Shown here one piece after another: positions 6,849 through 58,394 of a stretch of DNA of 64,000 nt. Made by a program: the position numbers and the translations under genes. This DNA comes from Alkalibacterium putridalgicola (GTDB taxonomy: Bacteria > Bacillota > Bacilli > Lactobacillales > Carnobacteriaceae_A): contig NZ_FOBL01000013.1 in NCBI RefSeq assembly GCF_900109825.1, positions 1 to 64,000 of the forward strand, in the 5' to 3' direction. Within the stretch, counting starts at the first letter, position 1. Every line of letters begins with the position of its first letter. The notes under the pieces were generated by a model. That model worked only from the letters and a program-made list of their open reading frames with translations. It was not told the origin of the DNA and ran no database searches.

Positions 6849-6876
6849 AAAAAACGACTACAATGGAGGTTAATAT

Positions 6877-8378: not shown

Positions 8379-9133
8379 ATGATTAAAGATAAAATGGTTC
8401 AACCCATGCCATTCTGGCAGTCACTATTATATTTCGGCATACCAGCAGCTATATTTATAATAAGTATCTATGTGATCATGCCGTTGTTAGGTGAGGGCGG
8501 AGTCGATCCAGTGTTGAATTACACGTTGACCTTGATGGGGCCTGTCATCTTTCTTTTTGGTGCATCGTTTGTTGCCTTGAAATTTGACGGATACGAATTG
8601 AGATGGAAAGTGATCAAACGTAGATTCCGGTTGAAACCGATCAAAAAAAAGAGTGGCTTTGGACTTTAGGATTGTCTTTATTTATGATATCAGGAAATTT
8701 TCTTTTACTACCTACACAATCGTGGCTGCTCGATGTTGTTGGCTTCGCTCCGCCTGAATATTTACCTACAACATTGGATCCGCGAATGACAGTATCTGGG
8801 ATACCACCTGAATTTGAAACAACGCCAATTGCACTGCTTATCACCTTTCAGTTATTCTTCTTGTTTTTTAATATCCTTGGGGAAGAGTTCTGGTGGAGGG
8901 GATATATACTTCCAAGGCAGGAAATAGTGCACGGTCAATATACTTGGATTCTTCACGGACTTCTCTGGACACTCTTTCATATTTTCTAGTGGTGGAACCT
9001 TATTTTTCTACTGCCGGGGGCACTGGCTGCGTCATTTGTAGCACAAAAATCTCAAAACACGACGATAATCATTATTGCTCACCTTTTGGTCAATACTTTA
9101 GGGGGAACAATCATATTATTCTTAACTGGATAG
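8379..9133 (+). pseudogene. CPBP-family intramembrane metalloprotease, broken
   Basis: Three pieces of one CPBP (Abi/CAAX protease-like) membrane protein are visible. The first 96 codons end at 8669. A frame change in the A8 run at 8643-8650 is needed to continue as KKEWLWTLGL and onward. The second frame carries the active-site motif EEFWWRGYILPRQ and the second motif HGLLWTLFHIF. It then meets TAG at 8987-8989, where relatives have a tryptophan (FHIFWWW), and after the stop the same frame goes on to 9131 with an ordinary last helix. The restored protein would be about 250 residues, the normal family length. A poly-A frameshift plus a TGG-to-TAG change make a functional product unlikely. The family cleaves membrane substrates and is linked to bacteriocin immunity in lactic acid bacteria. 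Confidence 0.85.
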
Positions 9134-9397: not shown

Positions 9398-9943
9398 ATG
9401 AGACTTTTTATAGCGATTGAACTGGATAGTCAGGTTAAAAGAGTTTTGACTGACATTCAGCTGAACTTGAAAGACAGCATCAGTAAAGGAAATTACACAT
9501 CATCTGATAATTTCCATATCACCTTACGCTTCATAGGAGAAGTGAATGAGGACGAAGCAGAGAAACTAAAAAAAGCTATAGACGATACTGTTCAGCAGAT
9601 ACAGCCGTTTACTTTATACTTAGGTGGTTTAGGACATTTCCCAAGGAAAAACAAAGAAATCATCTGGGTCGGCGTAAAGGGGCAGGCGGAGAAGCTGTTT
9701 AAGTTGAAAGAACAGCTGGAAACTGAACTCGAAGTTTCAGGATTTTCGAAAGAAGAACAGGACTACATTCCCCATATTACTATGGTCAGACAAGCCTTAC
9801 TGGAAAAAGGATTTGATGAAATCAAAGCAGACTTGAGGGTGCCGGAGGAAAAAATTGCGGTAAAAAGTCTATCATTAATGGAAAGCAAACGAGTAGAGGG
9901 TGATCTGGTTTACACGGCGATCCACAAACGAGATTTTCACTAA
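9398..9943 (+). CDS. thpR: RNA 2',3'-cyclic phosphodiesterase ThpR
   Basis: A 181-residue 2H phosphoesterase of the LigT/ThpR group, which opens 2',3'-cyclic phosphates on RNA ends. The two catalytic HxT motifs are present at His40-Thr42 (FHITLRF) and His126-Thr128 (PHITMVR), in the duplicated half-barrel arrangement expected, and the length is normal. The ATG follows TGAGGGAGTG. It lies downstream of the decayed CPBP gene and shares a bidirectional terminator with the convergent heliorhodopsin gene. Confidence 0.92.
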   Translation: MRLFIAIELDSQVKRVLTDIQLNLKDSISKGNYTSSDNFHITLRFIGEVNEDEAEKLKKAIDDTVQQIQPFTLYLGGLGHFPRKNKEIIWVGVKGQAEKLFKLKEQLETELEVSGFSKEEQDYIPHITMVRQALLEKGFDEIKADLRVPEEKIAVKSLSLMESKRVEGDLVYTAIHKRDFH

Positions 9944-10024: not shown

Positions 10025-10810
10025 CTATTGAGGCTGCATGACTCCGGCGAAAGCGAGCCAGGCCAAAATAGACTTAGCCACCAGACTCAGGACGATATAG
10101 CCTTTTTCACCATACAAGTAGTTGTCCCACTTTCCGATTTTCTTGTACTGCAGGATCATATTGATTGGAAACAAATTGAAGAAGACAAAATAACTGCCGA
10201 CAATGGCATAAACAAACCAGGGGACTTCTGCGGGATTTGAGTTTCCGAATGCATACAAAAGAATAACGATTCAGGGCGCTGCACCAGCAATGCTGCCGAA
10301 GACAAAGGGTTTCCAGTTGGTTTTCTCTGTATATTGATTTATTTCTTCCATATCTAAACCGAAAAGATTCATAGAAGCGTTAGCGGCAATGATCAGGATA
10401 AGGGCACCGATATCATAGACACCGAATAAGAGAGCGATCAGCACGATCATAAGTGATGAGCTGAGAGCATATTCATACCATCGAAAAGGGTTCATGCCTT
10501 TCTTCAGTTTTCTATTGTAAATGGGATTGCCCCAGGGACTGACAATGATAAAGTGCGCTGCAGCCGATATAAATAAAAACAAAGAGACTAGGATACCAAA
10601 CGGCACGTCAAACAATTGATTGGTTTCAGTGACAAGACGCATTTGAGTCTGATCGAATGTGAGGAAATTGGACATGACAGGCACAGTGAATTCGGCGATC
10701 CGTTCAATGAAAAGCGCAAAACCCAGCATGAGTAATCCTTGAACGAGATGCAGAAAACCCATCACTGTATTGAATTTTTTCAGTGAATCCATAGTGATTT
10801 CCTTTGACAT
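10025..10810 (-). pseudogene. Heliorhodopsin, interrupted by one in-frame TGA
   Basis: Read as one frame this is a 261-codon seven-helix protein with a clear heliorhodopsin signature. It opens with FNTVMGFLHLVQG in helix 1. RWYEYALSSSLMIVLIA in helix 3 places the counterion at Glu113. NASMNLFG and FGSIAGAAP follow, and helix 7 has LSLVAKSILAW with the retinal Schiff-base lysine at Lys246. The single lesion is TGA at 10271-10273 (codon 180), exactly where the family has Trp (GIVPW), so it is a TGG-to-TGA change; both sides stay in frame and look conserved. The start at 10810 has AGAAGGTG upstream; an ATG at 10831 lacks one. Without readthrough the product ends after helix 5 and lacks the chromophore lysine. 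Heliorhodopsins bind retinal with inverted topology and are thought to sense or signal, not pump. No retinal-making gene is nearby. Confidence 0.93.
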
Positions 10811-11025: not shown

Positions 11026-12249
11026 ATGAATTCGCTAAAATTATTAGAACCACTGATACTGCCTAATGGTAAAGAAATCAAAAACCGTTTCCTGAAGTCT
11101 GCAATGAGTGAAACCTTGGCAAACCGGGATCATCAACCCACTGAGAATCATATGAAATTGTATGAAAGATGGGCAGAAGGTGGCTCAGGTATTGTCGTTA
11201 CTGGGAATGTCATGATCGACAGAAATGCTCTAGGGGAACCGGGCAATGTGGTGGTTGAAGATGAAAGAGATCTTGACCTACTAAAAAAATGGGCGGAAGC
11301 CGGGAGCAGGCAGGGGGCGCAGCTGTGGATGCAGATCAACCATCCGGGCAAACAGTCTCCCCGTTCATTATCCAAAGAGCCAGTTGCTCCCAGCGCCATT
11401 CCGTTACAGAATTACTCCAGTCAGTTATTCAGCCAGCCCAGAGCGCTGACGACAGAAGAGGTCAAAGGACTTGTTCAAAAGTATATAAAAACCGCCTCTG
11501 TCGCAAAAAGGGCTGGATTCAAAGGGGGCCAGATTCATGGGGCCCATGGCTACCTCGTCAGTCAGTTTCTTTCGGCACAGCATAATCAGCGCAGCGACCA
11601 GTACGGTGGCTCACTTGAAAATCGGATGCGATTTTTAATGGAAATCTATACAGGAATGAGAAAAGAACTGGGTCCAGACTTTTCTATAAGCGTTAAGCTC
11701 AATGCTTCTGATTTCAGTTCAGGTGGATTCAGCGAAAAGGAATCACTTCGTGTGGCACAGACTCTGGCCGGTTCGGGTATCGATCTGATCGAGATCTCAG
11801 GTGGTAACTATGAGAATCCACGAATGTTTAAAGAAACTGAAAAAGACAGTGAAGATATCTTCTTCATCGATTATGCCGAAAGATTAAAAGCATCCGTCGA
11901 TGTGCCGGTAGTAGTGACGGGTGGTTTCCGATCAGTAGACAGCATGGAGAAAGCTCTACGAGAAGGCAAAACTTCGATGATCGGTCTGGCTCGACCTTTA
12001 GTTTTGTATCCTGATTTACCCAGTCAGATCATCAAAGGGAAAAGACCACAGATAAATACACCCCGACTCACCACCGGTAGCAGCTACCTGGACGGGAAAG
12101 TGGGTTCATTGATGGGGATCAGTTACTATGAACATCAGATCGCCCGCCTTTCTGAAGGAAAAGAGCCCAGGATCACCCGTAATGGGTGGAGACCCTTGTG
12201 GCATACATTAAAGTCTTATGGTTTGACTGGACTACTGCCCAGACGATAA
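11026..12249 (+). CDS. NADH:flavin oxidoreductase (old yellow enzyme family)
   Basis: A 407-residue FMN-dependent TIM-barrel ene-reductase. N-terminal LPNGKEIKNRFLKSAM is the typical first barrel strand. INHPGKQ, the substrate-binding HGAHGYLVSQFLS, and VVVTGGF followed by IGLARPL (phosphate-binding end of the barrel) are all present. There is no C-terminal FAD/NAD domain, so it is the short type and not a 2,4-dienoyl-CoA reductase with an iron-sulphur cluster. The start follows TGAGGAG. It is transcribed divergently from the heliorhodopsin gene across about 215 bases. The substrate is unknown; these enzymes reduce activated alkenes and electrophiles. Confidence 0.92.
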   Translation: MNSLKLLEPLILPNGKEIKNRFLKSAMSETLANRDHQPTENHMKLYERWAEGGSGIVVTGNVMIDRNALGEPGNVVVEDERDLDLLKKWAEAGSRQGAQLWMQINHPGKQSPRSLSKEPVAPSAIPLQNYSSQLFSQPRALTTEEVKGLVQKYIKTASVAKRAGFKGGQIHGAHGYLVSQFLSAQHNQRSDQYGGSLENRMRFLMEIYTGMRKELGPDFSISVKLNASDFSSGGFSEKESLRVAQTLAGSGIDLIEISGGNYENPRMFKETEKDSEDIFFIDYAERLKASVDVPVVVTGGFRSVDSMEKALREGKTSMIGLARPLVLYPDLPSQIIKGKRPQINTPRLTTGSSYLDGKVGSLMGISYYEHQIARLSEGKEPRITRNGWRPLWHTLKSYGLTGLLPRR

Positions 12250-15452: not shown

Positions 15453-16439
15453 ATGTCTGAATATAATCATTCTTGGTTGAAGCAGTTGAACTATGATCCC
15501 ATTGCCCCCTTACTCGAAAAGAGTGATGATGCCTTCAAGCTTAAAGTGTTTAAAGATTTATGTGACCGGGAAGTTCCTTTTGAATCAGGGGGGACATCCG
15601 AAGAAGTCTTGCGCTTAGTAAGAATGCAGGAGCCCCAAGGCTTCTGGAAATATCCCAAAACACGTAACACCATGGATTTGTCTAACTTGAATCAGTATCA
15701 GTCATTCAGAAATCTAGGAAAGCTAGTTGAAATGTATAATCTTGATCGCTCTCATTCATCAGTTCAAAACGCAGCAGATTATTTCTTTTCTGTTCAGACT
15801 GATCAGGGAGATTTTCGTGGCATTTATGATAAACAGTATACGCCGAACTATACAGCAGGTATCACAGAACTTCTTATTAAAGCAGGTTATCCAGATGATA
15901 AAAGAATTTTAGCGGCTCTGGACTGGTTAATAAATAACCGACAGAACGATGGAGGCTGGGCACTTGCGTTCAGGACAAAAAATTATAACATTGATGTGAC
16001 TTATGATTATCACAAAACAATCGAACCAGACTTCACTTAGCCCTCTTCGTACATGATCACGGTGGTAGTGCTGCTCGCCTTTTGTATACATCCACACTAT
16101 AAGAAACGGCAGGAAATCATAGAAGCCGGGGAACTGGTCAGTCGGTATATATTCAAACGAGACATTTATCCTGACAGACAGGACAAAAAGTACTGGAAAC
16201 AGTTTGTCTACCCATTTTGTTATGCCGACTTGATATCCGTTCTGGATTCTCTGTCGCTTCTTGGTTTCCCGCCATCTCATCCTGACATTAAAAGGGGATT
16301 GCAGTGGCTAGTTGATGAACAGCTGGAGTCAGGGGCTTGGCAGTTGAAAATCACTTCAGGTCGAGACAAAGCACAGATACAATGTTATCTGAACTTAGCT
16401 GTCTGTAAAATTTTTAATCAGTTTTATGGAAATCAGTAA
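15453..16439 (+). pseudogene. Prenyltransferase/squalene-cyclase-repeat protein, split by in-frame TAG
   Basis: One 328-codon frame broken by TAG at 16038-16040 (codon 196); both halves are in the same frame. Four QW-type repeats of the terpene-cyclase alpha/alpha barrel can be seen: QEPQGFW, QTDQGDF, RQNDGGW and, after the stop, QLESGAW. After the stop the text PSSYMITVVVLLAF reads on as normal protein, so this looks like a recent point nonsense mutation. The protein is much shorter than squalene-hopene cyclase (about 630 residues) and lacks its DxDD motif. It belongs to the small repeat-only proteins of unknown function, not to a proven cyclase. GAGGAGAGG precedes the ATG. A functional N-terminal fragment cannot be excluded. 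Confidence 0.8.
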
Positions 16440-16482
16440 CTGTTTGTTGAAAGGTAAAACATATAAGAGAGCGGGGGATTGA

Positions 16483-44759: not shown

Positions 44760-45516
44760 GGCGCATCGGCACTCCTTTTAATTGGCATAGATCTTTGACT
44801 TCGTGTATGGAGACATCTTCATCGTGGAAAATGGAGGCGGCAAGCCCAGCTGACACATCAGTATTCTGGAAAAGGTCTGCAAAATGCTGGGCATTTCCTG
44901 CACCGCCGGAAGCGATGACCGGGATAGTCACGGTTTCTTTGATTTTTTTAAGCAGTTCGTGGTCAAAGCCCTGCTGCATGCCGTCATAATCCATGCTGGT
45001 GATCAGCAATTCTCCTGCTCCTCGCGCTTCCACTTCCTTGACCCAATCCAGAGCTTTGACCTCGGTTTTTTTCTTGCCGCCGTGGGTGTAGCAGTACCAG
45101 TCCTGATCTGCTTCCTCCCATTTGGCGTCGATGGCGATGCAGATACACTGTGAACCGAATTTTTCGCTGGTTTCATTTATCAGCGACGGATCATTCAAAG
45201 CAGCTGAATTCAAGCTCACTTTATCTGCACCGGCATTCAATACAGCTGAGATATCTTCCGAAGATTTCAGGCCACCCCCGATAGTCATGGGGATGAAGAG
45301 TTCTTTAGCGGTTTCCCGTATAACATCGAGCATCAGGGCATTCCCTGTATGTGTTGCTGAGATATCAAGAAACACCAGCTCATCGGCACCTAATGTATTA
45401 TAACGTTTCGCTAATTCGACTGGATCGCCGATCTCTCGAAGACCTTTAAACTGGATTCCTTTGACGACGACACCATCTCTGACGTCCAGACAAGGGATGA
45501 TACGTTTTTTGATCAT
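44752..45516 (-). CDS. hisF: Imidazole glycerol phosphate synthase subunit HisF
   Basis: A 254-residue TIM-barrel cyclase that uses ammonia from HisH to form imidazole glycerol phosphate and AICAR. RIIPCLDVRDG holds the catalytic aspartate in strand 1, and VFLDISATH, IGGGLKS, VSLNSAAL and IASGGAGN are in order. It is intact, although its partner gene hisH is broken; HisF alone can use free ammonia in vitro in known systems. It overlaps hisA (ATGA) and hisI. Confidence 0.97.
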   Translation of the reverse strand: MIKKRIIPCLDVRDGVVVKGIQFKGLREIGDPVELAKRYNTLGADELVFLDISATHTGNALMLDVIRETAKELFIPMTIGGGLKSSEDISAVLNAGADKVSLNSAALNDPSLINETSEKFGSQCICIAIDAKWEEADQDWYCYTHGGKKKTEVKALDWVKEVEARGAGELLITSMDYDGMQQGFDHELLKKIKETVTIPVIASGGAGNAQHFADLFQNTDVSAGLAASIFHDEDVSIHEVKDLCQLKGVPMRHD

Positions 45517-46200
45517 GAAATTTCCTCCCAGAAAGCTTCTGTATTAGCGGCTTTTCCGACAATGGCCGCTTTAATACCGGCTGTTTCCAGACGTTTCAAA
45601 TCGTTTAAACTGCGTATGCCGCCGGATGCGGTAACTGGGTGAGGGGTCAGATCGGCCAATTTTTCTGTCAGTTCGAAGTTAGGGCCCTGCATTTTCCCGT
45701 CTTTAGAAATGTCCGTATAAATAATGCCTCCCAAAGCAAGCGAAGCCGTTTCTTCAGCAACATCATAAATCGTTTTATCCACGGATTCTGTCCAGCCATT
45801 CACTGCGACCTGATCTTTTTTTGCATCAAGTCCCAGATAGATCTTGCCTGGATAGAGCGTAGTCATTTCTTCCAGCCACTGACTGTCCTGCAGTCCCCGC
45901 GTGCCGACGATGACGTAAGAGGCACCACTGAATAGGTAGTGAACGGATACCACCCCCGATTTCGACAGGGGAAGTACTGGATTCGATCAATTCCTTGATG
46001 AACGTTTTGTCGCTGGGTTTTTTGTGTAAGGCACCCATGAGATCAACGATATGGATGCGTGTGACCTGTTTGAATCGATTGTAAAAAGAGATGGCTTCTT
46101 TCGGGGACCGTTTCATGACTTCTTTTGAATCATAAACGCCCTCAGTCAGGCGTACACTCTGCTGATCGATCAAATCGATCGTCGGCCAGATTTCTATCAT
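45513..46200 (-). pseudogene. hisA: hisA, broken: phosphoribosylformimino isomerase
   Basis: Two frames of one HisA (step 4, ProFAR isomerase) are visible. The N-terminal part runs from 46200 with MIEIWPTIDLIDQQSVRLTEG to EIGGGIRS. The rest continues in another frame from YLFSGASYVIVGTRG to the stop at 45513, with LGLDAKKD and ASGGIRSLNDL. At about 45940-45950 roughly six residues between GGGIRS and YLFSG are missing together with the frame, pointing to a deletion of about 17 bases (length inferred from relatives). The active-site Asp residues lie on both sides, so the split protein should be inactive. Confidence 0.88.
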
Positions 46201-46775
46201 AATTTAAAACCGCCTTTCAAAGCCTGATCAAGGATGTGAAGACCCTGGTCACCACTTTTTTCCGGGTGAAACTGGATACCGATCAGATTGTCTTTCTGTA
46301 CGATAGCGACAACAGGATCTCCATAATTTGCTGTGGCAACAATATTTTCATCTGTGTGTACTTTGTATGAATGGATAAAGTACACATCCCCTTGTAAAGA
46401 AGGAAGGATGAATTCAGTTTATTCCATCCCAGATGAGGAACGGGAAGCGACCCTGTGATTTTTTTGACTGTCCCCGGAAGATATCCCAACCCGTCCGCAT
46501 CTCCTTCTTCACTGTGCTCAAAAAGAAGCTGCATCCCTAGACAGTTTCCGATAAAGGGTTTCTGCTTTTTTTATTCAGTCAATACGGGGACCAGATCGAG
46601 TTCGTTTAAACGGTTCATGGCATCTTTAAAATGTCCGACACCAGGGAGTATGATCGTATCAGCCGCTTTTTAGTTTAGTGACATCATGTGTTACAACTGA
46701 CTCATATCCCAAATAGTGAAGCGCGTTAGACAAGTTGGCGATATTACCTAGACCGTAATCTACAATGGCAATCAT
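46197..46775 (-). pseudogene. hisH: hisH, multiply broken: glutamine amidotransferase subunit
   Basis: The HisH sequence can be read across three lesions. It starts at 46775 (IAIVDYGLGNIANLSNAL). A one-base insertion near 46663 (GCGGCTGAT) brings a TGA at 46659-46661. The next frame (ADTIILPGVGHF) meets TAA at 46571-46573 next to an A7 run, then continues with [19 protein letters not shown], the amidase cysteine region. A further shift near 46396-46409 leads to VYFIHSYK and IQFHPEKSGDQG. The catalytic Cys, His and Glu codons survive, but no intact reading exists. HisH supplies ammonia to HisF. Confidence 0.9.
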
Positions 46776-57755: not shown

Positions 57756-58238
57756 TTAATAAAAGAGACTAATAACAAGTGCGATAATGATGCCTGAAAT
57801 GATCCCAAAAAAGACTTCGATCGGTTTGTGGCCAAGGAACCCTCTCGATCTCAGTTCTTCATCATCTTCCTTCAGTACTTCTTCGTGATGATATTTAGAG
57901 AATGATTTTTGCAGATCATCAAAGTCTCTGATCAGTTCATTGATGATGATCCCATGCTCTCCGCTTTGGCGTCTCACACCCATAGAGTCAAACATAACAA
58001 TGACCCCGAAAGTGAAGGCGATGGCGACATAAGGAGAAGCCACTCCATATTCGATCAGTAAACTCGTAACCAAAGCTGTGACTCCGGCAGAGTGTGAACT
58101 GGGCATGCCGCCTGTCGACATAGCCAAGGCTACTGTTGAAGGACGCTTCAAAAAGTAGGCGACCGGGATTTTAATGAGTTGAGATAAAATAATGGCTGAC
58201 AAAGCAGCAACTAAGGGATAATTTTCCAGTAATGTCAT
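57756..58238 (-). CDS. yuiD: Divergent PAP2 family protein (YuiD)
   Basis: A 160-residue membrane protein with four helices and the divergent acid-phosphatase signature TGGMPSSHSAGVTAL plus FDSMGVRRQSGEHG. Members resemble VanZ/PAP2-type phosphatases acting on membrane lipids; the real substrate is unknown. It is transcribed in the same direction as yumC, 35 bases upstream of it, so the two may form an operon. Confidence 0.9.
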   Translation of the reverse strand: MTLLENYPLVAALSAIILSQLIKIPVAYFLKRPSTVALAMSTGGMPSSHSAGVTALVTSLLIEYGVASPYVAIAFTFGVIVMFDSMGVRRQSGEHGIIINELIRDFDDLQKSFSKYHHEEVLKEDDEELRSRGFLGHKPIEVFFGIISGIIIALVISLFY

Positions 58239-58333
58239 TTAACAACGTCCTTTTTAAGATTGATAGGCACCTTTTAATAATAACATGAACAAAAGAAAAA
58301 AATTATAAAAAAGTTTCACAAAAGTAAAACTTA

Positions 58334-58362
58334 TTGGAAAACGAAATGAACTACGGTAAACT
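58334..58362 (+). promoter_or_regulatory. Promoter of the cyclophilin gene
   Basis: TTGGAA (58334-58339) and TAAACT (58357-58362) have a 17-base spacer, about 20 bases before the AGGAGGAAT ribosome site. Confidence 0.55.
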
Positions 58363-58394
58363 AAAGACACATCAAATTTAGGAGGAATTAGAAC

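Follow-up and report, generated by a model that had tools for sequence, protein, structure and literature searches.

Does a heliorhodopsin gene that carries one in-frame TGA still give rise to a photoreceptor, or has it just been lost? The gene that raises this question lies on the minus strand, at 10025..10810, of a 64,000-nucleotide stretch of the Alkalibacterium putridalgicola genome (assembly GCF_900109825.1, contig NZ_FOBL01000013.1, positions 1 to 64,000), hereafter the window, which represents nearly all of a 64.7 kb contig in a draft assembly of 2.6 Mb and 72 contigs. A first-pass annotation made from the sequence had drawn attention to the gene and given its position correctly, leaving the minus strand unstated. 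As argued here, the gene is probably (about 0.82) a real and very recent single-base null allele, that is, a young pseudogene in which Trp codon 180 changed from TGG to TGA.

A heliorhodopsin frame with one internal stop

The frame runs from an ATG at 10810 down to 10025 and comprises 261 codons with a single internal stop. With an X placed at the stop, its translation matched the Pfam Heliorhodopsin profile PF18761 along positions 1-242 of 242 (E 2.8e-102), and it also matched solved heliorhodopsins, among them TaHeR (6IS6; E 2.9e-60), whose retinal lysine and counterion glutamate align with K246 and E113, respectively. Both residues are invariant in an alignment of 22 sequences, although this is a property of the reading frame and not of the cut-short product. 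The frame was rightly recognised as a heliorhodopsin in the first-pass annotation, which named the same two residues. As in the family members TaHeR and 48C12 (6SU3), we found the full-length profile match, Glu113, Lys246 and seven predicted helices; unlike in these proteins, the seven helices do not lie in one open frame, which is closed by the TGA in helix 5 (residues 167-188). No second heliorhodopsin copy was found in this genome.

The stop is the TGA at codon 180 (10271..10273, minus strand), where all the collected relatives have TGG. Trp occupied this position in 89 of the 90 loci that we took from genomes, some of which were counted twice, the sole exception being the window copy, and the column is invariant in the 22-sequence alignment, into which the window row was entered with the TGA as Trp. 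Exactly one TGA, at a Trp conserved in the family, had also been the earlier description of the lesion, and it held. A single transition can create a stop in this gene in 23 ways, 14 of which begin at Trp codons, so a fresh stop at a Trp is unsurprising.

To place the stop in the protein we used an AlphaFold2 model in which the TGA was read as Trp (mean predicted local distance difference test score, pLDDT, 88.9; predicted template modelling score, pTM, 0.84). In the model, helix 5 comprises codons 167-188 (10312 down to 10247, minus strand), with the codons 146-167 side of this helix spanning approximately 10310..10375 on the same strand. The stop is predicted to cut helix 5 slightly beyond its middle, so that four helices would be whole and the fifth partial; the five-helix product proposed earlier needs correcting in this respect, while the loss of the lysine, proposed with it, stands. 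Translation starting at the ATG at 10810 would end within transmembrane helix 5, giving a 179-residue fragment that would stop short of the remainder of helix 5, of helices 6 and 7 and of the retinal lysine (codon 246, 10073..10075, minus strand, placed by alignment to 6IS6), and would not be a photoreceptor. From what is known of the family, a product without Lys246 would lose covalent retinal binding and, unlike in the other members of the family, the lysine-bearing helix is not made in the absence of readthrough.

Age of the stop and selection on the gene

The first-pass annotation had reasoned that a recent loss would be less credible if relatives had no intact homologues. Intact heliorhodopsin orthologs are present in 8 of 12 Alkalibacterium genomes, the closest named copy being that of A. 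subtropicum DSM 23664 (96% identity). The window gene differs from this copy by 67 synonymous and 13 nonsynonymous changes, and the ratio of nonsynonymous to synonymous substitution rates (dN/dS) was 0.040 before the stop and 0.032 after it. Selection had not yet relaxed on either side (dN/dS 0.03-0.04), as expected of a young loss, and the lesion is not shared by the orthologs, with their Trp in 89 of 90 loci, as expected of a recent pseudogene. These ratios agree with the very recent change, or null allele, that had been suggested before.

The amino-acid changes were split about evenly between the window and A. subtropicum branches. On a fully neutral branch approximately 197 nonsynonymous changes would be expected, whereas approximately 7 were seen if the changes are split evenly, and at most 13, implying either that the stop is recent or that the gene is still functional. 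Judged from these counts, neutral time would make up at most about 7-10% of the window lineage's branch, and the rest of the gene still bears the signs of strong purifying selection lasting almost until now.

Other broken genes in the window

We counted the broken genes within the 64-kb window by comparison with A. subtropicum and Alkalibacterium sp. 20, and found four besides heliorhodopsin, two of them with several lesions. Aligned with A. subtropicum, hisH (46200..46775, minus strand) shows a 1-base insertion at about 46670, a Leu-to-TAA change at about 46574 and a 1-base deletion at about 46410, while hisA (45513..46200, minus strand), which is unbroken in eight congeners, shows a 17-base deletion at about 45940. 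With both genes broken (45513-46775, minus strand), the strain is predicted to be a histidine auxotroph. A gene for a CPBP/Rce1-like protease (8379..9130, plus strand), unbroken in Alkalibacterium sp. 20, has a 1-base deletion at about 8645 and a Trp-to-TAG change at 8987 in comparison with that strain, and a squalene-hopene-cyclase-like gene (15453..16440, plus strand) has a Gln-to-TAG change at 16038 in comparison with A. subtropicum. The reverse comparison revealed no clear gene break in A. subtropicum.

In deciding between an error and a real loss, these surrounding lesions carry the most weight. Sequencing noise is a poor explanation for a 17-base deletion and for genes that each have several different lesions, so real gene loss is most likely under way in this genome, and a further nonsense change, in heliorhodopsin, fits that picture. 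We propose that a single-base change turned Trp codon 180, TGG in the relatives, into TGA and inactivated the heliorhodopsin very recently; the result would be a strain- or species-specific young pseudogene in a lineage whose functions, among them histidine synthesis, are being lost.

The stops found at 6871, 16480, 35131, 40870, 55440 and 58241/58256 relative to the A. subtropicum frames were excluded from the count because most lie close to the start or the end of a gene and may reflect different start sites. The frame at 57759-58370 (minus strand) is 94.6% identical to a 204-amino-acid A. subtropicum open reading frame (ORF), with TAA codons in place of Tyr39 and Tyr44 of the latter, which may represent a start-site difference or a further broken gene. 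In Alkalibacterium sp. 20 the squalene-cyclase-like and LigT genes are split too (L132:866-1824 and L132:7480-8021), suggesting that gene breakage extends beyond the species of the window.

Recoding, readthrough and sequencing error

A change of the genetic code to TGA as Trp was ruled out: among the 153 sites at which A. subtropicum has Trp, the window keeps Trp at 151 and has TGA at one, codon 180, the other Trp sites staying TGG, and TGA terminates 9 of 42 homologous genes. The tRNA-Trp that we found has the CCA anticodon and a 5-bp anticodon stem (ATGGT/ACCAT, read from the sequence), and so differs from the 4-bp-stem tRNA-Trp reported to read UGA (PMC13092985). Neither a tRNA-Trp of that kind nor an opal suppressor was found in a single pattern search, which a divergent suppressor could escape. 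Selenocysteine was likewise rejected, there being no tRNA-Sec match over the Rfam cut-off in the genome, and the RNA downstream of the stop showed no unusual structure (z +1.15). Nothing that we could read from the DNA supports efficient readthrough.

Two considerations weigh against a young pseudogene: a possible miscall of this single base in the consensus, in one assembly of one strain, and the fact that sequence does not by itself distinguish a gene with so little decay from one still expressed through readthrough. An error of sequencing or assembly, with TGG as the true codon and the gene intact, would account for one lesion of one base in a gene otherwise unchanged, and the assembly is a draft in 72 contigs. 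We nevertheless consider it unlikely, since four further genes of the window have genuine-looking lesions, including the 17-base deletion and two or three unlike lesions per gene, so that nonsense changes are to be expected here, and since a comparable heliorhodopsin stop is present in another species. Somewhat less probable again is a leaky stop, at which the ordinary tRNA-Trp would misread UGA at a few per cent, insert the native Trp and allow some full-length heliorhodopsin to be made. Low-level UGA readthrough by tRNA-Trp is known in Bacillus subtilis from the older literature; UGA is one base off TGG, decoding by the near-cognate tRNA would put the conserved residue back and the gene shows no decay past the stop, but recency by itself accounts for the missing decay. 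If this explanation were true, the leaky UGA would be tolerated and the allele would be not a null but a down-tuned photoreceptor at reduced dose.

We find it very hard to credit a split photoreceptor, assembled from the first fragment and a second one re-initiated at a TTG shortly past the stop. The ORF starting at this TTG (10258-10025) encodes the last part of helix 5 together with helices 6-7 and Lys246, and split bacteriorhodopsins can assemble in vitro; however, no Shine-Dalgarno-like sequence is visible directly before the TTG, and the cut falls within helix 5 and not in a loop. Among the options that the first-pass annotation had listed, the null allele is thus the one we retain, the error being unlikely in view of the other broken genes of the window and readthrough having found no positive support.

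Genomic setting

The heliorhodopsin gene is located between two intact genes, a convergent one for a LigT-type 2'-5' RNA ligase (9398..9943, plus strand; PF02834, E 2.1e-22) and a divergent one for an NADH:flavin oxidoreductase of the Old Yellow Enzyme family (11026..12249, plus strand; PF00724, E 1.3e-54), an arrangement common to most congeners. Heliorhodopsin is absent from two congeners, G003 and G008, in which no close ortholog of the oxidoreductase is present either, and no heliorhodopsin remnant was found beside LigT in G008. In several congeners a 364-amino-acid protein without a Pfam match is encoded between the oxidoreductase and heliorhodopsin genes (L018:4080-5174, minus strand); it is absent from that place in the window, and a similar one is encoded elsewhere on the Alkalibacterium sp. 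20 contig (L132:13218-14333).

Heliorhodopsin loss in related bacteria

The heliorhodopsin gene of A. thalassium DSM 19181 has a TAG at the invariant Trp251, past Lys246 (L009:1501-2280 and L018:6001-6780), and this TAG is its only amino-acid difference from the A. pelagium heliorhodopsin, accompanied by 12 silent changes. As in the window, a single nonsense change has struck an invariant Trp in a gene that is otherwise unchanged; in contrast to the window, the stop at codon 251 removes no more than the last part of helix 7 and the tail, and is an independent event. In one genome of a related genus, an end of 37 residues is all that is left of the heliorhodopsin (L131:6907-7017, minus strand), with a TGA and a TAG, the second stop being again at the Trp251 position. 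No stops were found in nine full-length heliorhodopsins of other genera, from a phylum-wide draw of 398 genomes, and no sister-strain copy was found among viral contigs.

Within the literature collection searched, no papers linked Alkalibacterium with heliorhodopsin. TfHeR of Trichococcus flocculiformis is, like that of the window, a heliorhodopsin of a Bacillota bacterium, and is reported to aid a CPDII photolyase (PMC9769723); the window gene differs in that it is not adjoined by a photolyase, a photolyase-family gene being present elsewhere in the genome. Such a gene was found in 11 of the 12 genomes, and a heliorhodopsin-photolyase link gave no clear signal, since these 11 include both the window genome and G003, which has no heliorhodopsin. 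Matches to the beta-carotene dioxygenase family PF15461 in the genus were all below the Pfam cut-off, suggesting that retinal would need to be taken up from outside, a dependence that may make the heliorhodopsin gene easy to lose.

Taken singly, the window gene would be an ordinary young pseudogene, and its modest value is comparative, alongside the other heliorhodopsin losses of its clade. Within this one small clade the gene can be seen whole, with a fresh stop at one or the other of two Trp codons, as a short remnant and missing altogether, and the A. pelagium and A. thalassium pair provides natural material on the role of heliorhodopsin and on when it is dispensable.
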